A DNA stretch of 38,347 bases from Acidobacteriaceae bacterium (lineage in GTDB: Bacteria; Acidobacteriota; Terriglobia; Terriglobales; Acidobacteriaceae). Below are positions 12,177 to 26,901 of the stretch, one piece after another (the stretch's first letter is position 1; every line of letters begins with the position of its first letter). Under the pieces are notes generated by a model, which searched no databases, was not told where the DNA came from, and saw nothing but the letters and a program-made list of their open reading frames with translations. The translations under genes were made by a program, and so were the position numbers. Location: the NCBI GenBank assembly GCA_025360645.1, contig JANYBT010000069.1:1-38347 (forward strand), in the 5' to 3' direction.

Positions 12177-12205
12177 ATTGAGTGGTCCCCACGATGCCTA
12201 TTAGG

Positions 12206-12233
12206 TATATACTGCTGGAGCCGTTTTGTGAAG
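12206..12233 (-). promoter_or_regulatory. Possible promoter of the MFS gene
   Basis: On the minus strand a CTTCAC element (12233-12228) and a TATATA element (12211-12206) are separated by 16 bases and lie about 30-57 bases before the MFS start. The -35 match is poor, so this is tentative. The palindrome at 12234-12246 directly abuts the -35 element. Confidence 0.3.
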
Positions 12234-12246
12234 GTGGACAGTCCAC
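12234..12246. promoter_or_regulatory. Palindrome GTGGAC-A-GTCCAC, candidate operator for the MFS gene
   Basis: A perfect 6-bp inverted repeat with a single central base lies 58 bp upstream of the MFS start, next to its tentative promoter. Its size and symmetry suit a dimeric DNA-binding regulator. It differs in sequence from the palindrome at 12339-12360, so the two need not bind the same protein. Confidence 0.4.
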
Positions 12247-12338
12247 TTCTATCGACTTGCCATAAATATTATTGGACCTTCCGCAAGGGGCAGACGCAGT
12301 CGAGGGTATTGATAGCGCATGGGGTCCCTCGATTGAGT

Positions 12339-12360
12339 TCAAGTTGTCATGACAGCTTGA
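12339..12360. promoter_or_regulatory. 22-bp palindrome, candidate operator of the GntR-LacI regulator
   Basis: A TGTCATGACA core (12345-12354) is flanked by TCAAG and CTTGA arms (12339-12343 and 12356-12360). Ten of eleven base pairs match; only 12344/12355 is mismatched. It lies 33 bp upstream of the regulator start in the region shared with the divergent MFS gene. This position and symmetry fit an autoregulatory operator of a GntR-type winged-helix dimer. Confidence 0.55.
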
Positions 12361-12382
12361 CCCACTTGCAGCAGTGATAAAT

Positions 12383-12388
12383 GGGGAG
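12383..12388 (+). promoter_or_regulatory. Ribosome-binding site of the regulator gene
   Basis: GGGGAG is 5 bases before the TTG at 12394 but overlaps the in-frame GTG at 12388. This favours the TTG as the start. Confidence 0.5.
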
Positions 12389-12393
12389 TGAAC

Positions 12394-13512
12394 TTGAGCA
12401 ACAACGTCAAGCCGAAGTACCAGAAGATCGTCTATGAGTTGCAAAAGTCCATCGCCTCCGGTGAGCACAAAGAGGGCGAGCGGCTGCCCAGCGAAGCCGA
12501 TCTGGTGGAGAGTTACTCCACCTCCCGGCTCACCGTGCAGCGCGCCCTGAAGGAGTTGCAACACCTCGGTCTCATCGAACGCCGTGCCGGGTCGGGCACC
12601 TTTGTGCGCCGTATGGACCACACCAAGGGCCACTCCTTCGGACTGCTCATTCCTGGTTTGGGCGAGACCGAAATCTTCGAACCAATCTGCCAGGCCATGG
12701 CCTGCGCCGGTCGTGTCGGAGGCCATGCTCTGCTCTGGGGAGACACTACTCAAACCACCGGCAACAGAGAACAGCAGACCAAAGAACTCTGCGAATATTA
12801 CATTTCCCAAGCCGTGTCTGGCATCTTCTTCGCTCCCGTCGAATTGATGCCCAACAGCGACGAAATCAATCGCTGGGTCATCAACGCCCTGGAAAAGGCC
12901 CGCATCCCCGTGGTCTTGCTCGATCGTTGCTTTTCTCCTTACCCCCAGCGCAGCCGTTACGACCTGGTGGGCATAGACAATCGTCGCGCCGGATTCATTG
13001 TGACCGATCACTTGCTGCGCCACGGCTGCGAGCGTTTGGTTTTTCTCGCCGTGCCCTATTCCGCTCCCACTGTGGACGCCAGAATCGCCGGTTTCCGCGA
13101 AGCCCTCGAAACCTTTAGCATCTCTGCGGGCAAAGATTGGATCCATATCGGCGAACCCGATGATGCCGTAGCCGTCCGCAAGACCCTCGACACCATCCGA
13201 CCCGACGGTTTTATTTGCGCCAATGACATGACCGCCGCCCGCCTGATGCGAACCCTCGAACAACTCGAAGTGCCCGTCCCCGACCAAATACGAATCGCGG
13301 GTTTTGACGACGTAAAGTATGCGGGCCTGCTGGGCGTGCCTTTGACTACAGTGCACCAACCGTGCCGCGAAATCGGAGAGGTCGCCCTCTCCACCATGCT
13401 TGATCGCATGGCTCACCCCTCTCTTCCCGCGCGCGATGTTTTGCTTTCCTGCAGCCTCGTCGCTCGACGCTCCTGTGGCAGCCACACCTGCCATAAATTC
13501 GAGACATCATGA
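12394..13512 (+). CDS. Transcriptional regulator: GntR-type winged helix fused to LacI-type sugar-binding domain
   Basis: This 372-residue regulator begins at a TTG at 12394 (a GTG at 12388 is the alternative). Residues about 5-75 are a GntR winged helix-turn-helix, with KYQKIVYELQKSIASGE, then LPSEADLVESYSTSRLTVQRAL and a wing ending RRAGSGTFV. Residues about 80-350 are a LacI/periplasmic-binding-protein effector domain, with GIFFAPVE, VVLLDR, VGIDNRRAGFIVTDHLL, DGFICANDMTAARLM, IRIAGFDDV and LTTVHQP. The same architecture is known in Bacillus AraR, which releases DNA when it binds its sugar. By context it should sense a sugar linked to GH32 or the MFS porter, perhaps fructose or sucrose. 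Its stop overlaps the GH32 start (ATGA), so the two are translationally coupled. Confidence 0.88.
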   Translation: MSNNVKPKYQKIVYELQKSIASGEHKEGERLPSEADLVESYSTSRLTVQRALKELQHLGLIERRAGSGTFVRRMDHTKGHSFGLLIPGLGETEIFEPICQAMACAGRVGGHALLWGDTTQTTGNREQQTKELCEYYISQAVSGIFFAPVELMPNSDEINRWVINALEKARIPVVLLDRCFSPYPQRSRYDLVGIDNRRAGFIVTDHLLRHGCERLVFLAVPYSAPTVDARIAGFREALETFSISAGKDWIHIGEPDDAVAVRKTLDTIRPDGFICANDMTAARLMRTLEQLEVPVPDQIRIAGFDDVKYAGLLGVPLTTVHQPCREIGEVALSTMLDRMAHPSLPARDVLLSCSLVARRSCGSHTCHKFETS

Positions 13513-15053
13513 ATTCAATTTCACGCCGTTCTTTTCTGCTCGGTGTTGGCGCGGCCGCTTCTGCCGGCCTGCTCGTCTCTCGAAGCCCGCTGCTGGCCGC
13601 CGCCGAACCAGCCGGTCTCGCTTCCCGTCTCGCCGCTGACCCCCTGCGTCCGCAATTCCACCTGCTTCCCGCCGCCAACTGGATGAACGACCCCAACGGC
13701 CCCATTTTTCTCAACGGCGTGTATCACATGTTTTTCCAGTACAACCCCAACGCTTCGGTGTGGGGCGACATGCATTGGGCGCACGCCACCAGCGCTGACA
13801 TGGTCCATTGGAAGCACCAACTAATAGCCATCGCGCCCACTCCCGGCGGCTACGATCAAGACGGCGTTTTCAGTGGCTGCATCGTGATGGATGGCTTGCT
13901 GCCGACCGCCATCTACACTGGCGTCCGCACCACCGCCAACCAAGCGGATGCCACGTTGCTCGATGGCGTCCACGTTTTTCAGGAAACTCAGGGACTCGCG
14001 ATTTCTCGTGACAACCTGCAAACCTGGCAGAAAACTGCCGCCCCCATCATCGAGCGGCCTCCCGCTGGCATGGCCATCACCGGATTTCGCGACCCCTGCG
14101 TGTGGCGAGAGGGCAACAACTGGATGTTAGCTCTGGGCTCCGGCGTCCCCAAAAAAGGCGGCGCAATTTTGCTCTATCGCTCCCCTGACTTGCACCACTG
14201 GACTTATTTGCATCCCCTGTTGGAAGGCGCCTCCAAGGGTAGCGACGCCATCAATCCAGTCGATGCCGGCGACATGTGGGAATGCCCGGACTTCTTTCCC
14301 CTCGGCGATCGCCACGTCCTGCTGATTTCGACCATGGGCAAGGTGTTCTGGAAATCGGGCAAGTACGCAGCCGGCCGCTTCACCTCCGAGCGGGAAGGTA
14401 TGGTGGATTTCGGTTCGTATTACGCGGCCCGGACCATGCTCGACCGCAACCGCAACCGCATCCTATGGGGCTGGATTCCCGAAACGCGTCCTGAAGCTGA
14501 ACACCGCGCTGCCGGCTGGGCGTGCGCCATGAGCCTGCCCCGAGTGCTCACCCTCAGCCCCGAGGGCGACCTCCGGATGGAAGTCGCTGGCGAGGTGGAT
14601 GCCCTGCGCGGAAGTCACACCCGCCTCGACTCGGCCATGAGCGCGGTGGCCCGGCAAAAAACTTTGGCCGCGCTGCGCATCCGCGATCTCTCCGCCGAAC
14701 TCCAATTGGAATTCATGCCCGAGCCTGGCCGCGAGTTTGCTTTCGAGCTACGCGGCGAAAATGACGAACCCTTCGCCTCGATGGCTTACAACCCCGCCAA
14801 CTCAGGCCGCGAGCTGCGCATCAACAAGACTTTCGCCGCGCTTCCCGTCGCCGCCGGAAAGCCGGTGCATCTGCGCTTGTTCCTCGACGGTTCGGTTCTC
14901 GAGTTGTTCGCCAACTCGCAATCCTCAATCACTGAGCGTGTCTACACAGTGCCCAAATCCGCGCTCAAGATTTTGTTGCCAAACCCGGCCCACCTGAAAT
15001 CCCTGGACTGCTGGCAGATTCGGCCCATCTCCAAAGATCGTCTGACCACTTGA
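13509..15053 (+). CDS. Tat-exported GH32 beta-fructosidase (levanase/invertase family)
   Basis: This 514-residue glycoside hydrolase family 32 enzyme carries a twin-arginine signal, SRRSFLLG, with a hydrophobic segment up to LLAAA (residues 5-32). The active-site signatures are complete: WMNDPNG with nucleophile D61, the transition-state stabiliser motif RDP (194-196) and the acid/base motif EC (258-259). FSGC and a C-terminal beta-sandwich ending in DGSVLELFAN also match the family. GH32 enzymes release fructose from sucrose, inulin or levan; the fine specificity is not readable. The ATG overlaps the regulator stop by 4 bp. The next gene begins 13 bp after the stop, so a three-gene operon is likely. 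Confidence 0.92.
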   Translation: MNSISRRSFLLGVGAAASAGLLVSRSPLLAAAEPAGLASRLAADPLRPQFHLLPAANWMNDPNGPIFLNGVYHMFFQYNPNASVWGDMHWAHATSADMVHWKHQLIAIAPTPGGYDQDGVFSGCIVMDGLLPTAIYTGVRTTANQADATLLDGVHVFQETQGLAISRDNLQTWQKTAAPIIERPPAGMAITGFRDPCVWREGNNWMLALGSGVPKKGGAILLYRSPDLHHWTYLHPLLEGASKGSDAINPVDAGDMWECPDFFPLGDRHVLLISTMGKVFWKSGKYAAGRFTSEREGMVDFGSYYAARTMLDRNRNRILWGWIPETRPEAEHRAAGWACAMSLPRVLTLSPEGDLRMEVAGEVDALRGSHTRLDSAMSAVARQKTLAALRIRDLSAELQLEFMPEPGREFAFELRGENDEPFASMAYNPANSGRELRINKTFAALPVAAGKPVHLRLFLDGSVLELFANSQSSITERVYTVPKSALKILLPNPAHLKSLDCWQIRPISKDRLTT

Positions 15054-15066
15054 CCTCCGCATCCCG

Positions 15067-16062
15067 ATGCGACATCTCGCGATCAAACTAAGCTTCGCTC
15101 TGCTCCTACTGGTGGTGATTGCGCTCACCCTCTGGGGTGCCGCAGCGTTGTATTTTGACCTTCCATCCACCGCCTGGCAACTGCCGTCTGCGGTTGCCTA
15201 TGTGCTGCTCGCGATGGGAATTCTGCTGCGGCCGAAAGCGACTGTCACTGGACTCACTCTGTGGACTATCCCGTTTCTCTGCGTGCTGGTCTGGTGGCTC
15301 TCACTCAAGCCTTCCAACTACCGATCCTGGCAACCCGACGTCGCCGAGGTCGCATCGGCCGAGATCCAGGGGGACGCGGTGACCATCCACAATCTCCGCA
15401 ATTGCGACTACCGGACCGAAGCGGACTACACTCCGCGCTGGGAGAACCGCACCGTCCATCTCTCTAAGCTTCGCAACCTGGATCTGTTCATCACCTATTG
15501 GGGCTCGCCCTGGATTGCGCATCCTATCGTCAGTTTTGATTTCGGCGACGAGGGCCACGTCGCCATTTCCATCGAAACTCGCAAGGAAATCGGCGAGACC
15601 TATTCTGCACTGCGCGGCTTCTTCCGCGCCTATGAGTTGATCTACATCCTGAGCGACGAGCGCGACGTGGTTCGCCTGCGCACCAACTATCGCCTGCACG
15701 AGGAAGTCTACATCTACCGCACTCGCGCTTCAGCGGAAATCTCTCGCACCATCTTTCTGGATTATTTACGGCGGACCAACCACTTGCGCGAACATCCTGA
15801 GTGGTACAACGCATTGACCAACAATTGCACCAACAACATCAGCGCCACCGCAGCCGACGCCGAAGGGCGCGCGCATCCCGTAGATTGGCGCATCCTGCTC
15901 AACGGCAAAGCCGACAAAATGCTCTACCAACAGGGAGACCTCGCCGGGGACCTTCCCTTCCCCGAACTCAAGCGCCAGGCTCACATCAATTCCGTTGCCC
16001 ACACCGCCAACCAAGCTCCCGACTTCTCCCAGATCATTCGCCGGAGCCGCGCCGGGTTCTGA
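15067..16062 (+). CDS. DUF4105 (Lnb N-terminal-like) membrane protein
   Basis: This 331-residue protein has three likely transmembrane segments at the N-terminus (about 7-30, 36-54 and 58-80), followed by a soluble domain presumed periplasmic. The soluble part matches DUF4105: HNLRNCDYRTEADYTPRWE, LFITYWGSPWIAHPIVSFDF, then GHVAISIETRKE and a late NNCTNNI. The conserved His and Cys are reminiscent of a cysteine-hydrolase (NlpC/P60-like) site, but no activity is established that I can cite. Such proteins are often annotated as related to the N-terminus of secreted lacto-N-biosidase. It begins 13 bp after GH32 and probably rides on that transcript. No clear Shine-Dalgarno is seen. Confidence 0.8.
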   Translation: MRHLAIKLSFALLLLVVIALTLWGAAALYFDLPSTAWQLPSAVAYVLLAMGILLRPKATVTGLTLWTIPFLCVLVWWLSLKPSNYRSWQPDVAEVASAEIQGDAVTIHNLRNCDYRTEADYTPRWENRTVHLSKLRNLDLFITYWGSPWIAHPIVSFDFGDEGHVAISIETRKEIGETYSALRGFFRAYELIYILSDERDVVRLRTNYRLHEEVYIYRTRASAEISRTIFLDYLRRTNHLREHPEWYNALTNNCTNNISATAADAEGRAHPVDWRILLNGKADKMLYQQGDLAGDLPFPELKRQAHINSVAHTANQAPDFSQIIRRSRAGF

Positions 16063-16070
16063 TCCTACGA

Positions 16071-17093
16071 CTATGGAGCAGCAGGCTGTGCTGGCGGAGT
16101 AGCCTGCGGTGGATTCGCGGGCTGCAGCGGCGCCATCAGCAAGTCCTTACGCGGAAACGGCATCAGCAGCTCAAAGGGAAAGCTCACCAGAAATGCATAC
16201 CCTTTCAGGTTCGTCACTGCCAGTTCGTTCAGGGGCTCGCAGATGTAATGACCCGGAGGCACGCCCGGCAAGTCTGGCGAATAGACGTTGATCTCCGCGC
16301 GCACCGGCTGCAGCCGGCTGAATCGCCATGCAATGTGGTAATGCATGTACATCAGGTTCCCCACGAATTGCGTGACTTGCGGCTGAGCTAGCAGGAATTT
16401 CCATTTGTCCAGCTCCATATCGTGGGGCGGCTCCTGCACCGCTCCCACCGGCGTGAACGTCGCGTCTAAAATCGGGCTGCCGCTGAACAGCGAACGAATC
16501 GAATACGATGTCTCCGTGGTCGTCATCCGGCTCAGTCGCTTCTGATAGCCAACCAGCCACCCCAGAACCGTGGGATAGATGCGGTTCAAATACAAGCGTG
16601 GAAGATACGCGAATGGCCCCGTGTATCCCGACTCTTGCCCTGCCAACTGCACCCGGGGAATGTTCACTGCGAATTCCTGGTAGTTGACCCCCGGCCACGG
16701 ACACCACCCGGGACGCAAGTTTTCCGTCAGTCCAAAAACGTAAGCCACCGCATGATTGCCTTCATGGTTGATCATCGATGGCTGCAATTCAATTTCCGGC
16801 GGCAAACATTTTCGGACCCATTCCGCCGGCGCATACGCCACCACGATCGCCACCAGGTATTGTCCGCACGGGTCCCCCAGGCAGGGCTTCACCGTGATGT
16901 CGAATTGCGACTCGGGCAGAGGCCAGGAATCGTGACGATAGCTTTGCCAGCTATGGAACCAGTCCACTCTCCGGTCCCGTCCCGTGACCACGTCGAACAC
17001 GTGAGCGAAGAAGCCCAGCACCGCGGAAATCACCGAAATCACCCAGTGATACCAGCGTTGATCCAGCAGCCACTTCAGAAACCTGCACTTCAT
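16071..17093 (-). CDS. Acetoacetate-decarboxylase-superfamily-like protein with N-terminal hydrophobic anchor
   Basis: I start this 340-residue protein at the ATG at 17093, which overlaps the kinase stop by 4 bp; longer readings would lie inside the kinase gene. Residues about 15-36 (WYHWVISVISAVLGFFAHVF) are hydrophobic and may anchor it or insert into the membrane. The rest resembles the acetoacetate decarboxylase superfamily: YQEFAVNIP (138-146) fits the family Y-x-E strand, and GYQKRLSRM has a lysine (K185) where the family has its Schiff-base lysine in G-F-P-K-K. The C-terminus is a proline- and alanine-rich tail. Members may decarboxylate or condense or dehydrate keto substrates. The substrate is unknown; the family call rests on short motifs only. 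Confidence 0.5.
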   Translation of the reverse strand: MKCRFLKWLLDQRWYHWVISVISAVLGFFAHVFDVVTGRDRRVDWFHSWQSYRHDSWPLPESQFDITVKPCLGDPCGQYLVAIVVAYAPAEWVRKCLPPEIELQPSMINHEGNHAVAYVFGLTENLRPGWCPWPGVNYQEFAVNIPRVQLAGQESGYTGPFAYLPRLYLNRIYPTVLGWLVGYQKRLSRMTTTETSYSIRSLFSGSPILDATFTPVGAVQEPPHDMELDKWKFLLAQPQVTQFVGNLMYMHYHIAWRFSRLQPVRAEINVYSPDLPGVPPGHYICEPLNELAVTNLKGYAFLVSFPFELLMPFPRKDLLMAPLQPANPPQATPPAQPAAP

Positions 17094-20000
17094 CGCTTTC
17101 CCTCCGGGTTTGACAACGGAAATCCCCCCACATGCATATGCGCCATGCGCTGCGGATTCTTGATCTTTTGCCGCGCCATCCATTCCTCCGCTTCGCGCAC
17201 CATTTCCTCGCCGCGCGAATTGTTCATCAGTTCCCCGGCCAGGCGGCGGGCAGACATGGCATAGCTCACCATATCTGCGTCCTGAAACATGCGGCTGGCA
17301 GTGTCGAACTCATGCACCGCGCCGCCGCAGTCCCCGCGCTGCACCGCCAACCCCGCGAAAATGCTTTTCGCAAACGCCTTGCCCATCGCGGCTGATTCCC
17401 CGCCCAGGCTCTTGGCATCGTTTTCAGCCACCCGAAGACAGGCTTCCTTCCGTTGAGCGTTATCACTGCCGGCCGCCACCGCCAGATGGGTGCGGGCGCG
17501 AATGTCCTTCCACAAAATGCGCAGAGTGGGGACCCGATGCAGATGATTGGCCTTAAACTCTCTCCACTGCTCCGCCAGGTAGTCCAGGCTCTGGTCGGCG
17601 GTGCCCTCGTACAGGTTCGCGTACATGGTCGAGTGTGTGGCCATAGCGTGTTGCAGATGATAGCCGCCCTGGCTCCAGTGAGTAACCGCGTCCTCGGCCG
17701 ATTGCCGCGCCGCTTGCGGCCGGTCCATCGCCAGTTCCACCATGGGTCGGCAGAAAGCTTCCAGGTTGGTGAAGGTGTATAAATCGCCAAGTTCCTGCGC
17801 GTCCCCCATCAGCGGGGCGGTGCGGCGAATCAATTCCGCGAACTCACCCACATGTTGCAGCGAGTAAAGGTAAAGAGTTCGAGCCGTGCCTAGTTCGTAG
17901 CGGACGCCGGTGCATTCCGCGCTGTAGATGGCTTCCGCTTCCAGAAAACGGCGGCCCGCCGTGCGCCAGTCGGCGGAAATGTACGCCACCGCGCCCTCTG
18001 CCAACGTCATGTTCGCGATCAGGCTTCGGTCGGGAAACCGTGCCGCCATGTTCCTCCCCGCCTGGATCAGCTGCAGTGCGTGTTCCCGGCCGCGTTGTCG
18101 TCCCTCCAGTGAAACCAGGTTGTGCGCGGCCAGGAAGATTGCGCGGATCATGCGGACAGGCTCTCCCGCTCGCAACGCCAGCCACAAGCCCAGCAGGCTG
18201 AAATACATTCCCGCGAATAAGTCCACCATATTGAAGGGTGCCGCCACCGACCAGGCCGCATCAATCCGGTTGAGTTCCTTCCTGGAAATTTCAGCCTCGG
18301 GCCTTTCCCTTACTTTGAGGCCCTGCAGAACCAGCCGCATGCGGATCCACAGCAACGACAGCAAAATTGCGTTGCGGCTCTCTGGCATCCGCAACCCCAC
18401 CCTCGACAAGACCCGGCGAAAAATCTCCTTCCCCTCGTCCACTTTGCCGCTCGAGCAGTAGTGAAACGCCGCCTGGCGCTCCATCTCCAGGCCTTGCTCT
18501 CCGGGCAGCCGAGCCGCCACAAACTCAAATTCGGTGGCGGCCTCCACGCCACGGCCCGCGTTGGCCAGCGCATTGGCGAGTTTGGCGTGCAGTTCCGGAG
18601 TCTGGCTCTCTTCCCTTCCCGCCAGTCGAATCGCCTTGCGGAACAACTGGGTGGCGCGGTCAAACGCCAAAGTGCTCTGCGCCCTTTCTCCCGCCAAGTC
18701 GAAGTAATGGCCGGCCTTGCCAGACAATCCCGCAGCCTCGCAATGCACTCCCAAAGTTTCCGCATCGCCACGCCCGGACGATTCCAGCGTGGTGGCCAAT
18801 GACAGATGAAGGCGCGTCGTCGTTTCCGCCGAAAGATGATGCACCACGGTTTCGCGTACGCGATCGTGATAAGTCTCCAACTCGTCCAGTTCGCCGCCGC
18901 CCGTGCTCCGCACCATGCGGCCGTTCCGCAGCACCGCCAGCGGAGCGTGTGTCCGGGAATGGAATCCGGCGGCGGTGTAGGCATCCAGCTGCGCCAGAGG
19001 TCTGCCTGAAATGGCAATCGTTTCCAGCAAGCGCCTCGCATCTTCGGACATTTCCTCCACCCGCTTCCAAATCACCGCGTCTAAATCGAACCTGCCTCCC
19101 TCCCGCTCCACGCCCTCGTCTGCCTCGCCGATGGAGTGGGCAAGTTCTTGAATGAAAAATGGATTGCCGCTAGCTTCGGCAGCGGCACGGGCGGCTTGCT
19201 TCGCCGAACCCGGGCTGCCCGTGCCCAGTATCTTTTCCGCCAGCCGCTGCCCCTCGGCTGCTTGCAAAGGTCCTAGCGTAATGTCCAGAGTCTCCGTTTG
19301 ATGTTCCGCGAGTCCATCCGCCAACATGCGCAAACACGCGCTGCCGCCTTCATACTCCGAGCGAAAGGTGAAGATGAACAGCAAAGGCGGGGGATCGGGC
19401 GCCGCCATCAGTTCCAGCAACAACGCTGCGCTGTCCGCATCTCCCCATTGCAAGTCGTCAATCAGCAGCGCCACTGGTCGGACCGCACACAGCCTCTGAA
19501 ACAGATCCCGCAGCGCCTGAAAAGCCCGGCGCCTCAGTTCCCGTGGTTCGATCGCCGCAATCGCGATGGGCTTCGCATCTTTTCCGTCCACCGCGCGCAG
19601 CAGCACTGGGAATACATGCGTGAGTGGCGCCACATCGTGGGGGAGCAGCCGGGCACACTCGGATTCCGGAATGCGCTTCAGATAACGGCTTAAGGCATCG
19701 ATGGCCGAGTCCATGGCTTTGTAAGGCACCGACTCCTGTTCATAGCATCGGCCTCGCAAAAACAAAACGTCGCGCACTTGCGGCTGCTCGGTGAAGTAGC
19801 GCACCAGCGAGCTCTTTCCGATTCCTGAAACTCCTCGCACCATGGCCACCGCCGGCCGACCTCGGCGCGAATAATTCAGCGCTTGCTCCAGTGTCGCCAG
19901 CTCCGCGTCACGACCCACAAAGATGGCCGCTTCCGCGTCACGCAACGCTTTTTTGGACGGACGTCTGGGTTCGACGTCCGTTCCCTCCCCTTGCAGCCGC

Positions 20001-20938
20001 TTCAGAATCTCGTCGCCAGGCGGCCGCGCTCCCGGTTCCACTTGCAGCAGTTCGAGGCAGAGCTTATCCAGATCTTCGGGAACTTTCTGCGCCAGGTTCC
20101 GCGGCGGAAACGGAGTCCCATGCATCTTGCGGCGAAACATTTCCGAATGACTGCCGGTGAACGGGATTTGTCCGGTCAGCGCTTCGTACAACATCACGCC
20201 CACGGAATACCAGTCGCTGGCTGCGGAGAGCGCCTCGCCTCGCGTCTGCTCCGGCGACATGTACACCGCCGTGCCTGCGGTCCGGTCGGCTGCCGAGTCG
20301 CGGTTGATTTCCGCCACTTCCGCCGCCAGCCCGAAATCCAATACCACGGCCCGCCCATCGGTCGTCACCATCACGTTGGAAGGCTTGATGTCGCGATGCA
20401 GCTTGCCGGCCGCGTGCAGCGCTAACAATCCCGAAACCACCTGGCACAGGACGGACCGGATTCGAGCCGGATCGCTGGGCATGGGCCGGGCGGGAGCGAC
20501 TGCGGTCGCATCGGCGTCCACCGCCGCACCTTCGAGTGCTGGATTCGCTACCGTGGCGCGTTCTACCGTGGGGGCGGAACTCGTCAGCGTCGCCGCTTCC
20601 CGCGACACCGATGAAGAATCCAGAACGGAGTGCAGAAAATCCACCCCGTCAATGAAGTCCATGGTGTAGAACCATTGGCCTTCCTCTGCGAACAACTCAT
20701 ACAGGAGCACCAGATTGGGGTGGATGATGTTGGCGACCGAGCGGAATTCCTGCTTGAACAGATAAATCGCCGCCGGGTCCAGTTTCGGCAGTACTTTCAG
20801 CGCAACCCGAATGTCGCGCTCCCGGTCGTGGGCCTCATACACTACGCCCATGCCGCCAACCCCGACCCGCCTCACCATCTGAAAGCGTTGCGTTCCCTGG
20901 AAGGCCAAAGCGTTCGAAGGTTCGCGCGGGCCAGTCAT
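17090..20938 (-). CDS. Ser/Thr protein kinase fused to AAA-type ATPase and TPR-like region
   Basis: This 1282-residue signalling protein has three parts. Residues about 18-315 are an intact Hanks-type kinase: GVGGMG glycine loop (26-31), VALK (K48), HRDIKPSN (181-188), DFG (201-203) and the activation segment end YMSPEQ. Residues about 338-640 are a STAND/AAA-like ATPase with Walker A GVSGIGKS (369-376) and Walker B LLIDDLQWGD (491-500). Residues about 690-1270 are helical, TPR-like repeats. The layout recalls PknK-type and multidomain kinases of Acidobacteriota and Myxococcota. An Ala/Ser/Thr-rich insert at about 105-158 splits the kinase lobes. No transmembrane segment is obvious. The gene starts 6 bp after the FAD gene and overlaps the next by 4 bp, so it probably acts on or with the operon's enzymes. 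Confidence 0.9.
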   Translation of the reverse strand: MTGPREPSNALAFQGTQRFQMVRRVGVGGMGVVYEAHDRERDIRVALKVLPKLDPAAIYLFKQEFRSVANIIHPNLVLLYELFAEEGQWFYTMDFIDGVDFLHSVLDSSSVSREAATLTSSAPTVERATVANPALEGAAVDADATAVAPARPMPSDPARIRSVLCQVVSGLLALHAAGKLHRDIKPSNVMVTTDGRAVVLDFGLAAEVAEINRDSAADRTAGTAVYMSPEQTRGEALSAASDWYSVGVMLYEALTGQIPFTGSHSEMFRRKMHGTPFPPRNLAQKVPEDLDKLCLELLQVEPGARPPGDEILKRLQGEGTDVEPRRPSKKALRDAEAAIFVGRDAELATLEQALNYSRRGRPAVAMVRGVSGIGKSSLVRYFTEQPQVRDVLFLRGRCYEQESVPYKAMDSAIDALSRYLKRIPESECARLLPHDVAPLTHVFPVLLRAVDGKDAKPIAIAAIEPRELRRRAFQALRDLFQRLCAVRPVALLIDDLQWGDADSAALLLELMAAPDPPPLLFIFTFRSEYEGGSACLRMLADGLAEHQTETLDITLGPLQAAEGQRLAEKILGTGSPGSAKQAARAAAEASGNPFFIQELAHSIGEADEGVEREGGRFDLDAVIWKRVEEMSEDARRLLETIAISGRPLAQLDAYTAAGFHSRTHAPLAVLRNGRMVRSTGGGELDELETYHDRVRETVVHHLSAETTTRLHLSLATTLESSGRGDAETLGVHCEAAGLSGKAGHYFDLAGERAQSTLAFDRATQLFRKAIRLAGREESQTPELHAKLANALANAGRGVEAATEFEFVAARLPGEQGLEMERQAAFHYCSSGKVDEGKEIFRRVLSRVGLRMPESRNAILLSLLWIRMRLVLQGLKVRERPEAEISRKELNRIDAAWSVAAPFNMVDLFAGMYFSLLGLWLALRAGEPVRMIRAIFLAAHNLVSLEGRQRGREHALQLIQAGRNMAARFPDRSLIANMTLAEGAVAYISADWRTAGRRFLEAEAIYSAECTGVRYELGTARTLYLYSLQHVGEFAELIRRTAPLMGDAQELGDLYTFTNLEAFCRPMVELAMDRPQAARQSAEDAVTHWSQGGYHLQHAMATHSTMYANLYEGTADQSLDYLAEQWREFKANHLHRVPTLRILWKDIRARTHLAVAAGSDNAQRKEACLRVAENDAKSLGGESAAMGKAFAKSIFAGLAVQRGDCGGAVHEFDTASRMFQDADMVSYAMSARRLAGELMNNSRGEEMVREAEEWMARQKIKNPQRMAHMHVGGFPLSNPEGKR

Positions 20939-20944
20939 GATTGG

Positions 20945-23053
20945 CTAAACTGCTTCGCCGAAGTTTTCTCCAATGATCACCACTGGACGCCCCGACAATC
21001 CCGCCGCCGCCCGCAGTCCAGACATCACCGCGGCCTCAATGCATCCGGCATTCATCCCGGTCTTGGTCCAGTCGCCCGCCGCGTACAGATTGCTCAGGTC
21101 GGTGTCATCGGACCGGAAACGGTATTGCGTGCTGCCCTTCACCGAAAGCACATACCTCTCTGAGGGTTCCACGTTGGCGCGAAAATACTGGTTCTGCAAC
21201 CGCTCCTCGCCTTTGCCATCTTTCGCATCGGCCAGCAGATCATATTGAATCTGGCCGTCCTGATGGACGATTTGCGGAATCAATTCCTGCGATTGCGTCT
21301 TCAGGAACTGCACCGTGTTGTCGTAAACCGCCTGCCGCATTCGCGCCGGGAAGGAAGTGTCGGAGGGCGGCGGAATTCCGGGGTCCTTCATCCCTCCGCA
21401 CAAATAGCTGATCTGCAACGGGCTTTGGTCGTCCGGCCAACTCTCGTGCACCAGCAGATGGCTCATATCTGCCCAGGTGTCCAGCGGCTCCGCGTAAGAA
21501 GTCACCAATGCCCGGTCTTCGGTCCAATAACTCCAGCCCAGCCCTGCGATGTCGGGCAGGCACCACAACTGGCTTGCCTGCGTGGTGGTGGTCTTGACGT
21601 TGTCCACCAGCGCTTTCCATTTCGGCAGCGCCGCCACCAGTTCCGCCGCGACGATCGGAATGGACGCCAGCGACACCCCCAAAATCACATCGTCGAAATC
21701 CGTTCCCCGATGAAGTTCGACCGAACCCACGTCCTTCCACGGGCTCCAGTACGACTCCAGGTCAATCTTCTGCTTTTGCAACTCCCTGCCTTCGACGATC
21801 TGGTCGTAGTTGGGATGGCTGGGCCAGCACTTCATCCGCTTGACGGTGATGAATGGGTCGTAGTCTCCATCCTTGAGAGTCACTTGCTGCGCCAGCGTGA
21901 TCGACGCCACCGATTTTTTGTCCGGCGCCAGCCCCACGTTCGTCGCTCGGTGGAAAAATTTGAATTTCACGCCGCGCTGTTTCAGCACTTCATAAAGGGG
22001 CGCGAAAATCACATCGCCCATGCCCGACTGCATCCGCCAGTAAATGGAGCCGCTGTACATAAACAGCAGGCGAAGCGTGCCGTGCAGCATGACCGCCGCC
22101 GAGGCGGTATCGTTCTCGGCAAAGATCAGGTCATAAAGCGCTTTGATGATGGCCGAGTTCACCGTGATGTCGGTGGCGCCGTGCTTGCTCAGCCACTCGC
22201 GGAAATCGTACTGGTCGATCACTTTGATTCCGCCGGTCAGGACGCCGTCCGCCAGCATGCCCAGAATCGCACAGATGCCAAGATCCATGACGATCCAGAG
22301 ATGCCGCAGCTCGGTATCCTGGTCAATGCTCTCTTCCACCTCGCTCCAGAGCCACTTCAGGAATTGTTCGAGGATGCCGCCCACCGCGGCGTGAAGCCTG
22401 GTGTCCAGATGCATACTGTTGGCGAACGCAGCGTTGACCAGTTTCTCCGCGTCTTCCAGAATCACCGCGCCGCCAGTCAGGAACAGGCCCTCCGCGAACA
22501 CTTCCACTTCGCGGGTCAGCGTCCGCACTTCAGCCAAAAACGTTTCGTGAGTGATCTGGGTCTTGCCGGGGACTGGAGTGTCGCGCAACAAACTCCGCAA
22601 CGACCGCAGTACCATGCCAATCACTTCCCACAGCGAGGGCAAATGGCCAGCATCGCCGGGCAAGAGATCGTTCGCGGGAAATTCAATCAGCCAGGGATAC
22701 CACTTGCCATCCACGTTCTCCTCCAGCGTCATCTGGTTGGAGGGCTTCAAAGCCTCCGACCACGTCGCCATCGCTTCGGTCAGCGGACGGTTGGCTTCGG
22801 CATAACACTGGCGAATCAGGCGAAACGCATTCTGATAGAAGCCGAGCCAGAAATGCAGGCCGTGCTCCTCAATGCGGTTGCCATACTCGGGATTGCGTCC
22901 GCTGGCGCCTTTGCCTCCCGCGCGCCAGCCCATCTGATAGACGGTGACGTCATACTGGTCGCGAAACGCCGGGTCCTGGGTCAGCTCGAATACCGCGGAC
23001 ATGGCCGCCATCCCTGATCCCAGAACTGCGACCTTGCGTTTTTGCGGGCTCAT
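20945..23053 (-). CDS. FAD/NAD(P)-binding oxidoreductase, phytoene-desaturase/amine-oxidase-like (paralogue 1)
   Basis: This 702-residue flavoprotein begins with a Rossmann dinucleotide-binding fold, VAVLGSGMAAMSAVFEL (G12, G14), a YDVTVYQMGWRAGGKGASGR second strand and HGLHFWLGFYQNAF, as in carotenoid desaturases, hydroxysqualene dehydroxylases and amine oxidases. The C-terminal FAD motif NLYAAGDWTKTGMNAGCIEA closes the flavin site. A large central part (about 190-330) is not typical of the desaturases and has no known label that I can give. The reaction is unknown: it may desaturate or oxidise a hydrophobic substrate. It is clearly paralogous to the next gene upstream (23050-25254), and its ATG overlaps that gene's stop by 4 bp. 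Confidence 0.82.
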   Translation of the reverse strand: MSPQKRKVAVLGSGMAAMSAVFELTQDPAFRDQYDVTVYQMGWRAGGKGASGRNPEYGNRIEEHGLHFWLGFYQNAFRLIRQCYAEANRPLTEAMATWSEALKPSNQMTLEENVDGKWYPWLIEFPANDLLPGDAGHLPSLWEVIGMVLRSLRSLLRDTPVPGKTQITHETFLAEVRTLTREVEVFAEGLFLTGGAVILEDAEKLVNAAFANSMHLDTRLHAAVGGILEQFLKWLWSEVEESIDQDTELRHLWIVMDLGICAILGMLADGVLTGGIKVIDQYDFREWLSKHGATDITVNSAIIKALYDLIFAENDTASAAVMLHGTLRLLFMYSGSIYWRMQSGMGDVIFAPLYEVLKQRGVKFKFFHRATNVGLAPDKKSVASITLAQQVTLKDGDYDPFITVKRMKCWPSHPNYDQIVEGRELQKQKIDLESYWSPWKDVGSVELHRGTDFDDVILGVSLASIPIVAAELVAALPKWKALVDNVKTTTTQASQLWCLPDIAGLGWSYWTEDRALVTSYAEPLDTWADMSHLLVHESWPDDQSPLQISYLCGGMKDPGIPPPSDTSFPARMRQAVYDNTVQFLKTQSQELIPQIVHQDGQIQYDLLADAKDGKGEERLQNQYFRANVEPSERYVLSVKGSTQYRFRSDDTDLSNLYAAGDWTKTGMNAGCIEAAVMSGLRAAAGLSGRPVVIIGENFGEAV

Positions 23054-25254
23054 CGATCCACCTTCAGAGTGTCAACCGTCGTTTCCACCGTCTGCACCAC
23101 CACGACTTCTTTCTTGTGCGCCTTCCGCCGCCCGTCCATGTGACCGCCAATCGCGACGCTTCGTCCGGAAATCGCCCGGGCAGCCAGCAGCCCAGAGATG
23201 GCCGCCGCTTCAATGCAACCAGCATTGATTAAGCAATTGGTCCAGTCGCCGCTCAGCACCAGATTCGAGAAACCCGAGTCGCCAGGATCCAATCGGTATT
23301 GCCAACTATCCGTCACCGACAGCACATAGTGCTCCGTCGGATCTACATTGGCCCGGAAGAATTGGCCATTCAATCGAGCCGGGCCGGTGCCGCGTGCCGG
23401 GTCCACCATGTTTTCCCAGCGGAACTGCCCGTCCTTCTGCAGCAGATTCGGAAACGGAAACGCGCAGCCCGTCTGCAAAAACTCTTGCGCGTATTGCACC
23501 ACTCGCTGCGTGGCTTGGGCGGGGAAACCGTGATCGCTCGGCGGCGGCAGCGTCACATCTGGCATGGGACCGCAGAAATACGTAACGTTGTTCGGCGCCA
23601 GGTCGTTCGGCCAGTTCTCCCGAATTAACAAGTCGCTCATGTCGGCAAGCGTGTCGTACGGTTCCTGAAACGTGGTGATCATGACCGGCTCGGTCTGCGC
23701 CACCGGCTGGCCCATGCCGGTAATGTCCGGATACATCCAGAATTGAAACGCGATCGTCGGAATGGCCTGCACATGGGCCACCATGAGTTTCCAGGCCGAG
23801 TTGGCCGCAATCAATTCACCGCAGATGTAGGGCAACGCTCCAATCGGAATGCCCAGGAGCACGCGGTCGAAGTCCACTCCCTGCTGGAGTTGGTACGATT
23901 CGATGGGCTCCCAGTCCGTCCAGAACGATTCCAGATCGATGTTGCGCTTTTTCAGCTCTTCTCCCTCCACCAACTGCTCGTAGAAAGGTTCGCTCGGCCA
24001 ACTGGGAAGCCCACGCACGTCGTACAGTGGCTCATACTCCCCATTCTTGAGCGTCACCATGCGCTGCATCTCAATACTCGCGACCGCAGTCTTGTCGCTG
24101 TTCAATTCCAGATTTCCGACGCGGTGGAAGAATTGAAACTTGACTCCGCGCTTGCGCAGCACTTCGTAGAGCGGAGCAAACACCACATCACCCATGCCCG
24201 CCTGCATCTTCCAGTAGATCGAGCCGCGGTAGGTGAACAGCATGCGGATGGTGGCCCGCAGAGCGGTGCCGGCTTCGTAGGTGTAATACGTTCCCGCGAA
24301 CACCAGGCAGTAGAAGCCCTGCACCAGCGGCGAGGTCACAGTCTTTTCCGAGGCCCCATGTTTCTTGAGCCAATCCCGGAAGTCGAGATGGTTGATGACG
24401 TCGAAACCTTGGTCCAATACTCCGTCGGCGATAATTCCGCGGATCGTGGCGATGGTGAATTCGGCGAGAAGGTGAAACCGCCGCGCCTCGGTATTGCTGT
24501 CCAAATTCTCTGTAATGTGCTGGCGCAGCCACGTGATCAAGCGCTCCAGCAAACTTAGCAGCGCGGAGCGATGATGCACCGGGTCGCCATTGAAGGCTGC
24601 CATGTCGGCGGCCAGAGCCACCGCCGCATGCAGTACTTGCTCTTCCACCGACAACGTGATCAAGTGGGCGGCGGCCAAGCCATCTTCCACAACTTTGGTC
24701 AGGAAAGGGGCATGAGTTTCCATGAACCAGGCGAACTTGGTTCCGCCTTCGGCGGGAGTGAATTCCACATTGCTGGTGGAAACCAACAGGCTCAGCAGCC
24801 ATTTGAGCGCAATCCAGATGCACTCCTCCACGTCGGGCGGATCTTTGCTCTCCCCCGGCACCATGAGGTTAATCGGAAAGCTCAACTTCCAGTCGTACCA
24901 GGTGTCTTTTACGCGCTCGGAGAGAACAAAATAATTCGTCGGCTTAAAGGCCTCGTCCCAACGGCTGAGCGGCCGGTCCAGAGGGCGGTCGTTTTCTTCG
25001 TAGCAACGCCGCAGCATGCCGAAGGCGTTGTCATAAAAGCCGAACCAGATGTGCAGGCCGTGTTCCTGGATGCGGTCATAAATCTGCCGGTTGCGGCCGC
25101 TGGCGCCTTTGCCCCCCAGACGCCAACTCATCTGGTACACCGTGATGTCGTAGCGCTGCTGCCAATCGGCCTCGCTGGTCAGCTCAAATACAGCGGTTAG
25201 GGCGGAAACCCCTCCCCCGAGGACAGCAATCTTCTGCGGCTTTCCATTGCTCAT
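23050..25254 (-). CDS. FAD/NAD(P)-binding oxidoreductase, phytoene-desaturase/amine-oxidase-like (paralogue 2, operon leader)
   Basis: This 734-residue flavoprotein starts at the ATG at 25254, set by GGGAG 6 bases upstream; a longer in-frame reading from 25302 has no such site. It has IAVLGGGVSALTAVFEL for the dinucleotide, then YDITVYQMSWRLGGKGASGR and HGLHIWFGFYDNAFGML. A central GSIYWKMQAGMGDVVFAPLY segment is shared almost word for word with paralogue 1, and LSGDWTNCLINAGCIEA is at the C-terminal FAD site. It ends in a lysine-, valine- and threonine-rich tail that paralogue 1 lacks. It is the first gene of the four-gene operon. Function is unknown; hydrophobic substrate oxidation is inferred from the fold. 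Confidence 0.82.
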   Translation of the reverse strand: MSNGKPQKIAVLGGGVSALTAVFELTSEADWQQRYDITVYQMSWRLGGKGASGRNRQIYDRIQEHGLHIWFGFYDNAFGMLRRCYEENDRPLDRPLSRWDEAFKPTNYFVLSERVKDTWYDWKLSFPINLMVPGESKDPPDVEECIWIALKWLLSLLVSTSNVEFTPAEGGTKFAWFMETHAPFLTKVVEDGLAAAHLITLSVEEQVLHAAVALAADMAAFNGDPVHHRSALLSLLERLITWLRQHITENLDSNTEARRFHLLAEFTIATIRGIIADGVLDQGFDVINHLDFRDWLKKHGASEKTVTSPLVQGFYCLVFAGTYYTYEAGTALRATIRMLFTYRGSIYWKMQAGMGDVVFAPLYEVLRKRGVKFQFFHRVGNLELNSDKTAVASIEMQRMVTLKNGEYEPLYDVRGLPSWPSEPFYEQLVEGEELKKRNIDLESFWTDWEPIESYQLQQGVDFDRVLLGIPIGALPYICGELIAANSAWKLMVAHVQAIPTIAFQFWMYPDITGMGQPVAQTEPVMITTFQEPYDTLADMSDLLIRENWPNDLAPNNVTYFCGPMPDVTLPPPSDHGFPAQATQRVVQYAQEFLQTGCAFPFPNLLQKDGQFRWENMVDPARGTGPARLNGQFFRANVDPTEHYVLSVTDSWQYRLDPGDSGFSNLVLSGDWTNCLINAGCIEAAAISGLLAARAISGRSVAIGGHMDGRRKAHKKEVVVVQTVETTVDTLKVDR

Positions 25255-25262
25255 CGCCAGCT

Positions 25263-25329
25263 CCCGGCAAATTGTTGGCCCGGCCCCGGACAGCCGGGGC
25301 ATACAAGACAGAAGTGGGTCGTCCGACCC
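25263..25329 (-). promoter_or_regulatory. Structured 5' leader of the FAD-kinase operon
   Basis: Two perfect hairpins lie between a possible -10 element (TATAGT on the minus strand, 25346-25341) and the first start codon. They are GGGTCG/CGACCC (25316-25321 with 25324-25329, 2-base loop) and GCCCCGG/CCGGGGC (25283-25289 with 25294-25300, 4-base loop). The arm at 25300-25294 plus its neighbour also contains CCCGGC, which can pair with GCCGGG at the ribosome-binding site (25268-25263). The two pairings exclude each other. This could control translation, or could be chance in GC-rich DNA. Confidence 0.4.
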
Positions 25330-25695
25330 GAACGGAGGGAACTATATCAGAAAACAAAATCGGAGTCTTCGCACCAGAAATCCCCGTAACTCGTTGAAAA
25401 TGTCTGTAAGTGCTTGAAAACTATGAGGCGATATTTGAGGGGCGGTGAGACTGGCGCGGCCTGGCTCGGCTGGGTAACCGGAATCTCGACCATCGGTCTC
25501 GCGCAGAATGCCCTCCAGTAGCCACAGGAAGCTCGTGACGAGGCTATCGTACTCCGGGGCGACCCAAAGCTCATTCGCACCCTCACCCTGCCTTAGAACG
25601 CTTCCTACAGCAGAAATGCGCAAAACTTTGCACTATCACAAAATCTATACAATATCTTGTAGTTGCGTTTTGCAACAGAATCATTCATGCCAGAC
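25303..25695. other. Gene-poor stretch between the FAD operon and the thiolase gene
   Basis: I see no convincing gene here. The part nearest the FAD operon holds its leader and possible promoter. The part at about 25600-25690 is AT-rich compared with its surroundings and contains TACAA-TATC-TTGTA (25648-25661) and a weak 5-bp hairpin GTTGC/GCAAC (25662-25676) just past the thiolase stop. A minus-strand reading frame of 93 codons (25342-25623) shows no recognisable domain, and its base use does not persuade me that it is coding. The segment could be a remnant of an inserted or decayed gene. Confidence 0.4.
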
Positions 25696-26901
25696 TCACA
25701 CCCGCTCCAACACCACCGCGATTCCCTGACCCACCCCAATGCACATCGCGCAGAGAGCGTACTTCCCTTGACTGCGTTGCAGTTGGTAGGTCGCGGTGGT
25801 GACTAACCGCGCCCCACTCGCCCCAAGAGGATGGCCGATGGCGATCGCCCCGCCGTTCGGGTTCACCTGCGGAGCATCATCGGCGAGACCGAGTTGGCGA
25901 AGCACGGCCAGCGCCTGCGACGCAAAAGCTTCGTTGAGTTCAATTACATCCATGTCCCTGAGGCTGAGGTTGGCCTTGGCCAAAGCTTTCTGCATGGCGA
26001 ACACCGGCGCAATGCCCATGACCCGCGGGGCGACTCCCGCCGTGGCGGAGCACACCACGCGCGCCTTGGGCGTCAGACCGTAGCGAAGCGCGACTGCCTC
26101 GGTGGCAATCAGCAGCGCTCCCGCGCCATCGTTCACGCCGGATGCGTTGCCGGCCGTCACCGTGCCATCCGGCTTGACGATGGGGTTCAGTCTGGCCAAG
26201 GCTCCGAGCGTAGTGTCCGCGCGCGGGTGCTCATCCTGAGACACGACGACCAGTTCAGTTTTTTTCGTGGGAAGGGTGACGGGAACAATCTCGTCGGCCA
26301 GGCGACCGCTTCGCATGGCGTCCGCAGTACGCTGCTGGCTGCGAAATGCGAAAGCGTCCTGGTCTTCGCGGGAGACATGAAACTCGTCAGCCACATTCTC
26401 CGCGGTCTCTGACATGGAATCGACACCGTATTTGGCTTTCATCCGCGGATTGACGAAACGCCAGCCCAGGGTCGTGTCTTCCATTTTCATGGTGCGAGAG
26501 AACGCAGCGTCGGCTTTGCCAATGACGAAGGGCGCGCGCGACATGCTCTCCACTCCACCGGCAAGAATGAATGACGATTCCCCGCTCTTGATGGCGCGCG
26601 CGGCGGTGGCGACCGCATCCAGACTCGACCCGCACAGGCGATTGATGGTGCAGCCGGAAACTTCCTTGGGCAGACCCGCCAACAGCAACGCCATGCGTCC
26701 GACATTGCGGTTGTCTTCTCCAGATTGATTGGCGCAACCGTAAATGACGTCGTCGAGCGCACCCCAGTCCACGCCGCGGTTGCGCTCCATCAGAGCCCGG
26801 ATAGGAATCGCGGCGAGGTCGTCGGTGCGGACGCCAGACAGAACTCCTCCGTACCGCCCAAAGGGAGTGCGTATGGCATCGCAAATGAAGGCCTGCTCCA
26901 T
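25696..26901 (-). CDS. pcaF: Thiolase, 3-oxoadipyl-CoA/acetyl-CoA acyltransferase
   Basis: This 401-residue enzyme is a complete thiolase. The acylated cysteine is C90 in INRLCGSSLDA; the C-terminal motifs NEAFA, GGAIAIGHPLGASGARL and CAMCIGVGQG supply the catalytic His and second Cys. YGCANQSGEDNRNVGRMA and the length closely fit the 3-oxoadipyl-CoA thiolases PcaF and PaaJ, which split 3-oxoadipyl-CoA into succinyl-CoA and acetyl-CoA at the end of aromatic degradation. No other gene of that pathway is nearby, so a general beta-ketothiolase role in fatty acid or ketone metabolism cannot be excluded. It is cytoplasmic. It starts 7 bp after the stop of the small secreted-protein gene and is probably cotranscribed with it. 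Confidence 0.85.
   Translation of the reverse strand: MEQAFICDAIRTPFGRYGGVLSGVRTDDLAAIPIRALMERNRGVDWGALDDVIYGCANQSGEDNRNVGRMALLLAGLPKEVSGCTINRLCGSSLDAVATAARAIKSGESSFILAGGVESMSRAPFVIGKADAAFSRTMKMEDTTLGWRFVNPRMKAKYGVDSMSETAENVADEFHVSREDQDAFAFRSQQRTADAMRSGRLADEIVPVTLPTKKTELVVVSQDEHPRADTTLGALARLNPIVKPDGTVTAGNASGVNDGAGALLIATEAVALRYGLTPKARVVCSATAGVAPRVMGIAPVFAMQKALAKANLSLRDMDVIELNEAFASQALAVLRQLGLADDAPQVNPNGGAIAIGHPLGASGARLVTTATYQLQRSQGKYALCAMCIGVGQGIAVVLERV

Follow-up and report, generated by a model that had tools for sequence, protein, structure and literature searches.

Why would a bacterium encode two flavoproteins, a protein kinase with an ATPase domain and a relative of acetoacetate decarboxylase as one tightly packed unit? 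The question is raised by contig JANYBT010000069.1 (GenBank assembly GCA_025360645.1), whose 38,347 nucleotides were analysed as a whole and are called the window here. It belongs to a member of the Acidobacteriaceae with a genome of 3.8 Mb that is 99.89% complete. An earlier note, made from the letters alone, had described four tightly joined minus-strand genes. The list of open reading frames (ORFs) of the window contains all four at the positions given, encoding the flavoproteins FLAV-A and FLAV-B, the kinase-ATPase KIN and the acetoacetate decarboxylase-like protein ADC, and their junctions, read directly from the sequence, are two ATGA overlaps and one 6-bp gap (Table 1). The four-gene operon is real. 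Real and recurrent, too, is the association of its enzymes with signal transducers. It is apparently undescribed: no account of FLAV/ADC combined with a transducer was found in the literature searched, in which subscription journals are mostly not included. Its function, discussed below, we infer.

Linkage of the enzymes with signal transducers

A scan of GTDB yielded at least 540 FLAV-related stretches, the best 80 of which gave the 79 loci used for the locus counts; because a greedy script chose the ORFs, the gene neighbours are approximate. The loci span Acidobacteriota, Cyanobacteria, Bacteroidota, Planctomycetota, Verrucomicrobia, Anaerolineae and several proteobacterial and myxobacterial groups. 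ADC was fused to FLAV in 50 loci, lay within 1.5 kb in 24 and was absent from five; when one locus was kept per genus label, the respective numbers were 34, 17 and five of 56. Both orders of fusion occur among the 90 rows of the FLAV tree (36 ADC-FLAV, 14 FLAV-ADC). The repeated fusion makes it likely that the two proteins share a substrate or product.

The recurrent link of the enzymes with a signalling protein, as claimed in the earlier note, was supported by the neighbouring genes. AAA_16 genes occupied 27 of the 154 neighbour slots adjoining FLAV/ADC, compared with four of 938 other genes (Fisher 2.5e-20), and the enrichment was retained with one locus per label (25/109 versus 4/618). Altogether, 32 loci held an AAA_16 gene, which lay within 1.1 kb in 30 of them. 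Among the examples scanned, the AAA_16 partners carried Ser/Thr kinases (L033, L031, L063, L107, L108), nucleotide cyclases (L037, L067, L036, L031) or GAF/histidine kinase parts (L033, L063). The nearby transducers scanned in gamma- and betaproteobacteria were 7TMR-DISM histidine kinases (L074, L059, L068, L046, L049) and 7TMR-DISM diguanylate cyclases with a GGDEF domain (L052, L034, L060, L079). The partner class changes at least 23 times on the FLAV tree, a count that, like that within 1.1 kb, depends on distance thresholds of our own choice. The tree was built by a quick method, 28 of its 87 inner branches have a support under 80, and L030 was omitted as a duplicate of genome G032.

The exchange of partners bears directly on the model of the earlier note, in which KIN phosphorylates the flavoproteins or ADC and thereby controls the pathway. 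The kinase motifs of KIN are intact, the protein is co-encoded and coupled with the enzymes, and kinase-AAA_16 hubs are found in several phyla. However, in other lineages relatives of the same enzymes adjoin nucleotide cyclases, histidine kinases or diguanylate cyclases. Because the partner can be replaced by a cyclase, the kinase is probably not there to phosphorylate the enzymes, and we regard this model, weakened in this way, as very unlikely.

The enzymes remain linked to each other while the class of transducer changes, and we favour a common role in which the transducer reads a molecule made or consumed by the enzymes. In this reading, to which we assign a probability of roughly 0.4, the co-encoded receptor would read a hydrophobic molecule produced or converted by FLAV and ADC. 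FLAV and ADC would act as a single enzyme module at the membrane, which might oxidise or isomerise, and perhaps decarboxylate, a hydrophobic keto or polyene substrate such as a fatty-acid derivative or isoprenoid. The protein of the adjacent gene would be a receptor-transducer sensing the substrate or product, and its output would be specific to the lineage: Ser/Thr phosphorylation in the window operon, and cAMP/cGMP, c-di-GMP or a phosphorelay elsewhere. The support computed here comprises the folds and families of both enzymes, the lysine conserved in ADC, the recurrent fusion or adjacency of FLAV and ADC, the AAA_16 enrichment, the differing transducers and the coupled translation of KIN and ADC. 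The substrate, the reaction, the binding of the product by the hub and the direction of information flow are what we infer.

A broader and more tentative proposal is that the genes represent a widespread chemical signalling module, in which a FLAV-ADC synthase of a lipid- or isoprenoid-derived signal was repeatedly joined to different receptors. The receptors would then possibly include STAND kinases, STAND nucleotide cyclases and 7TMR-DISM histidine kinases or diguanylate cyclases, and the phyla concerned might be Acidobacteriota, Planctomycetota, Cyanobacteria, Bacteroidota and Pseudomonadota. Synthase-receptor pairs of the CqsA/CqsS type are similar in that an enzyme adjoins a membrane histidine kinase, but their enzymes belong to other families, and a signal role is putative here. 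If the proposal is true, one synthase family for a hydrophobic molecule is common to several phyla and has exchangeable receptors, and candidate ligands become available for two groups of proteins, the AAA_16/STAND kinases and the 7TMR-DISM receptors, of which only a few have ligands that are known. As the carriers include named isolates (Shewanella sp. ANA-3, Janthinobacterium, Nostoc and Pseudoalteromonas), product and receptor are directly testable.

The flavoproteins and the ADC-like protein

Both flavoproteins contain the Pfam domains NAD_binding_8 and Amino_oxidase, the latter with 22.2 bits in FLAV-A (cut-off 19.8) and 39.3 bits in FLAV-B. They pass the Pfam cut-offs and have the dinucleotide-binding motif, as members of the flavin amine oxidase/NAD_binding_8 superfamily. 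Their paralogy, already noted earlier, was borne out by an identity of 45% in the alignment, and they are the only FLAV copies in the host genome. In the FLAV tree, FLAV-A pairs with one copy of genome G032 (support 92) and FLAV-B with another (98); the duplication therefore predates the split of these genera.

The structure model of FLAV-B had a predicted local distance difference test (pLDDT) value of 91.5. Its best fold match was the phytoene desaturase of rice (5mog; Z 27.6 over 452 residues), with renalase second (24.4 over 319), and Foldseek also placed the rice enzyme first (8.2e-17 versus 1.4e-12 for the runner-up). The likeness to this 15-cis-phytoene desaturase of the plant and cyanobacterial type includes aligned LGGK and GLH motifs. 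In contrast to it, the FLAV proteins, which are 14-16% identical with the rice enzyme, have a helical insert at about residues 140-260 and are linked to ADC. FLAV-B missed the NCBIfam equivalog cut-offs for HpnE (60.5 of 283 bits), ZDS (54.7 of 622 bits) and phytoene desaturase (TIGR02731; 34.9 versus 569.4 bits). An identity as oleate hydratase was ruled out: the MCRA scores of the two flavoproteins (16.7 and 17.0 bits) lie below the Pfam cut-off of 23 bits, and the oleate hydratase OhyA (7kaw) ranked only 50th among the fold matches of FLAV-B (Z 20.6).

The model of the ADC-like protein (pLDDT 78.1, about 80-97 in the core) matched twelve entries of the acetoacetate decarboxylase superfamily at Z 17.7-19.2, after which the values dropped to 7.1. 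The profile of its family matched acetoacetate decarboxylases in the PDB at 7e-6 to 3e-4 with the lysine region aligned, and the column of the Schiff-base lysine is conserved to at least 90% in the family alignments A2 and A4. Judged by profile and modelled fold, the protein belongs to this superfamily and keeps the Schiff-base lysine, the catalytic use of which is putative. The window protein itself did not match Pfam ADC (PF06314) at E <= 0.1, and it is therefore classified as a divergent relative within the superfamily, not as an acetoacetate decarboxylase. In comparison with other members (ADC, MppR and the aldolase-dehydratase 4zbo/6eej), which resemble it in fold and lysine region, it has GYQK instead of GFPK, an N-terminal extension and the genetic link to FLAV. 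Close to its N-terminus, a 19-residue stretch has a mean hydropathy of 2.17 and is possibly a membrane anchor. Iterating the ADC profile on the loci under study enlarged it from 16 to 70 sequences within a single round; 14 of the 18 members of family A2 match PF06314 at E <= 0.1, which limits drift of the profile without excluding it.

A flavoprotein and a member of the ADC family are known to act on one unsaturated lipid in the conjugated linoleic acid (CLA) system of Lactiplantibacillus plantarum. These are the FAD-dependent oleate hydratase CLA-HY and CLA-DC, a double-bond isomerase that shifts a double bond next to a keto group (PMC11719350, PMC9241672). The window differs from this system in that its flavoproteins fall under the MCRA cut-off and its operon lacks a dehydrogenase and an enone reductase.

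The earlier suggestion that the enzymes form a short pathway with a lipid- or terpenoid-like substrate is supported by the phytoene desaturase fold of FLAV-B, by the profile and fold of ADC, and by the frequent FLAV-ADC fusions. The hydrophobic N-terminal stretch of ADC hints at a hydrophobic substrate, and so do neighbours in single loci: in Azospirillum the FLAV and ADC genes have a gene for an outer membrane protein transport protein between them, in Pseudoalteromonas FLAV is followed by a TonB receptor gene, and the Polyangium locus encodes a polyprenyl synthetase. TonB-type receptors or an outer membrane transport protein, encoded in some loci, would also fit a different function, namely that a hydrophobic compound from outside is taken up and broken down by a system with its own sensor; moreover, a pcaF thiolase gene lies upstream in the window. 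However, the thiolase is 441 bp away, catabolic genes do not recur, and no transporter is conserved across lineages in the list of neighbour clusters, of which one member each was scanned. We thus consider uptake and breakdown improbable.

The FLAV-ADC fusion of Polyangium (L105:4735-16510) lies amid four more ADC-like genes, genes for a polyprenyl synthetase/lipocalin-like protein and a major facilitator superfamily (MFS) transporter, and these neighbours are a possible lead to the substrate. One Azospirillum plasmid (L023:13953-26707) unites the genes for FLAV, the outer membrane protein transport protein, ADC and another FLAV with that for a large kinase-AAA_16 protein. A gene for a fatty acid cis/trans isomerase (CTI) was found near the fusion gene of Dasania (L078:13621-16002).

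KIN, its relatives and the proposed receptor role

The earlier description of KIN as a kinase-STAND ATPase-TPR protein was confirmed in its first two parts. The kinase motifs ALK, HRD and DFG and the Walker A motif GVSGIGKS are present, AAA_16 scored 94 bits (cut-off 32.6), and nSTAND1 was marginal (27.9 versus 27.1 bits). No TPR was found in KIN by Pfam at E <= 0.01; among distant hubs, TPRs were above the cut-off in L036 and below it in L067. The C-terminal part of KIN can be aligned with relatives. KIN missed the cut-off of the TOMM kinase/cyclase family TIGR03903 (142.2 versus 705.75 bits). The kinase family PF00069 had 14 matches in 12 open frames of the host genome, and the matches to KIN outside KIN itself were confined to its residues 1-334; the full kinase-AAA architecture is therefore present in a single copy. 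Full-length relatives of KIN are encoded in the FLAV/ADC loci of genomes G012 and G246 (42-43% identity) and of two planctomycetes (40 and 34%). A cyanobacterial partner (L033) resembles the cyanobacterial dual kinases cbSTKIII/HstK in combining kinase, GAF and histidine kinase domains, whereas the window KIN has neither GAF nor histidine kinase; the available part of that account mentions no FLAV or ADC neighbour (PMC2176072).

The four-gene order was not supported as a conserved unit, being absent from all seven other acidobacterial loci examined. G246 has the order KIN-ADC-FLAV-FLAV-FLAV, with further 4-bp overlaps at ADC/FLAV and FLAV/FLAV, and G340 has FLAV-KIN-ADC with a single flavoprotein. 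In G012, KIN and ADC are faced by FLAV; in G372, FLAV-ADC occurs with a second FLAV and a cyclase-AAA_16 gene. ADC and FLAV are divergent from a kinase-AAA_16 gene in G399, as is FLAV in L032, where no ADC match was found. KIN and ADC are closely coupled: their genes overlap by 4 bp in the window as well as in G246 and G340, and are 6 bp apart in G012. In G399, a second flavoprotein of the amine-oxidase type follows ADC directly (L120:6041-7711).

Several results weigh against a receptor that reads the product of the enzymes. By our own gene calls, 39 of the 79 loci lack a signalling gene as direct neighbour, and in some, for example L074, the histidine kinase lies one gene further off, which is weaker evidence. 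The enrichment was modest for histidine kinases (14/154 versus 36/938, p 0.01) and for GGDEF proteins (8/154 versus 11/938, p 0.0025; p 0.045 with one locus per label). The locus of G032 holds three FLAV genes and a convergent kinase without an AAA_16 hub, and ADC had no match anywhere in that genome. The N-terminal helices of the window ADC were modelled with low confidence, and the hydropathy of the G012 protein reaches a maximum of only 1.07, so that an anchor is not evident there. Finally, KIN-type paralogues also exist unlinked, ten in G399 (L121-L130) and two in G340 (L131, L132).

An obligatory tie of KIN to FLAV/ADC was thus ruled out, since none of these 12 unlinked regions contained a FLAV or ADC match; their neighbours were varied (19 scanned). 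In the hub tree the 12 unlinked paralogues group together (92/100), with the five linked hubs of Acidobacteriota and Planctomycetota outside and a single change of state, a result in favour of the proposed receptor. Monophyly of the five linked hubs was neither rejected (p 0.40) nor established by this tree.

The closest rival to a product-reading receptor is local regulation, in which the receptor would sense a cue from outside or from the membrane and switch on FLAV and ADC, whose product would be a lipid or pigment with a protective or structural function, not a signal. The same linkage of FLAV/ADC with signalling genes fits this explanation, and in Qingshengfaniella a Crp/Fnr gene overlaps the cyclase gene. 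Nevertheless, no regulator recurs, and the ORF list and domain scans revealed no transcription factor among the four proteins of the window operon; local regulation appears somewhat unlikely to us, though our results do not distinguish between it and the product-reading receptor. Crp was rejected as a general partner of cyclase hubs, because phmmer with the Qingshengfaniella protein gave only two weak matches in other loci (L055, L076).

Conflict systems are known to include AAA_16/STAND hubs, and together with the patchy distribution this would suit a defence or conflict system with FLAV and ADC as effectors. The defence link raised in the earlier note found no support, however. FLAV-A, FLAV-B and ADC had no PADLOC match at all, and the matches of KIN, judged from the best 25 of 32, fell nearly all in the generic kinase domain. 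In addition, no relative was found in 50,697 phage records, and no defence genes were noted among the locus neighbours scanned. A role in defence is hardly probable at all; a receptor for the molecule made or converted by the enzymes is still the reading that we prefer.

Operon layout and distribution

Table 1. Features of the operon and its junctions, in window coordinates.
Feature	Position	Strand	Description
FLAV-A (gene 1)	23050..25254	-	Phytoene-desaturase-type FAD protein, 734 aa from ATG 25254
FLAV-B (gene 2)	20945..23053	-	Paralogue of FLAV-A, phytoene-desaturase-type flavoprotein, 702 aa
KIN (gene 3)	17090..20938	-	Ser/Thr kinase, AAA_16, C-terminal region; 1282 aa
KIN kinase domain	19994..20899	-	About residues 14-315, including an insertion of some 60 residues
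KIN AAA_16 ATPase domain	19373..19921	-	Residues 340-522 (Pfam)
ADC-like protein (gene 4)	16071..17093	-	340 aa from ATG 17093; ADC fold preceded by a hydrophobic N-terminal stretch
Lys codon	16539..16541	-	Lysine of GYQK (residue 185 from Met), at the place of the Schiff-base lysine in the alignment with acetoacetate decarboxylases
FLAV-A/FLAV-B overlap	23050..23053	-	ATGA common to FLAV-A stop and FLAV-B start
FLAV-B/KIN gap	20939..20944	-	6 bp between FLAV-B TAG and KIN ATG
KIN/ADC overlap	17090..17093	-	ATGA common to KIN TGA and ADC ATG
Gap upstream of operon	25255..25695	-	441 bp, then pcaF-type thiolase

The FLAV-A start chosen is preceded by GGGAG, and the longest possible ORF begins at 25302; that of ADC begins at 17183. 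The promoter of the operon is likely to lie in the gap upstream of FLAV-A. Four sigma-70-like sites were found in 15000-26000, compared with 3.2 expected from shuffles, and the consensus scan detected none on the minus strand within the operon, which is weak evidence because such a scan omits other promoter types. The host genome encodes one ADC of this type (profile A4). Chance neighbourhood was ruled out: FLAV, ADC and the full KIN architecture occur genome-wide only at the operon locus, and the linkage recurs elsewhere.

FLAV is patchily distributed. It was found in six of 396 genomes drawn from the phylum at E <= 1e-30 and in four of 61 relatives at E <= 0.001, one of these matches being weak. 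A mobile or phage origin was rejected, as no phage record matched, though 11 plasmid records, mostly of Azospirillum, did; the four plasmid loci L021-L024 stand outside the 79-locus counts.

A 590-aa open frame lies antisense to FLAV-B (window 21245-23017, plus strand) and is probably a shadow ORF of high-GC DNA. The operon is flanked at 10845-16062 by genes for a sugar porter, a GH32 family enzyme and an Lnb_N domain protein.

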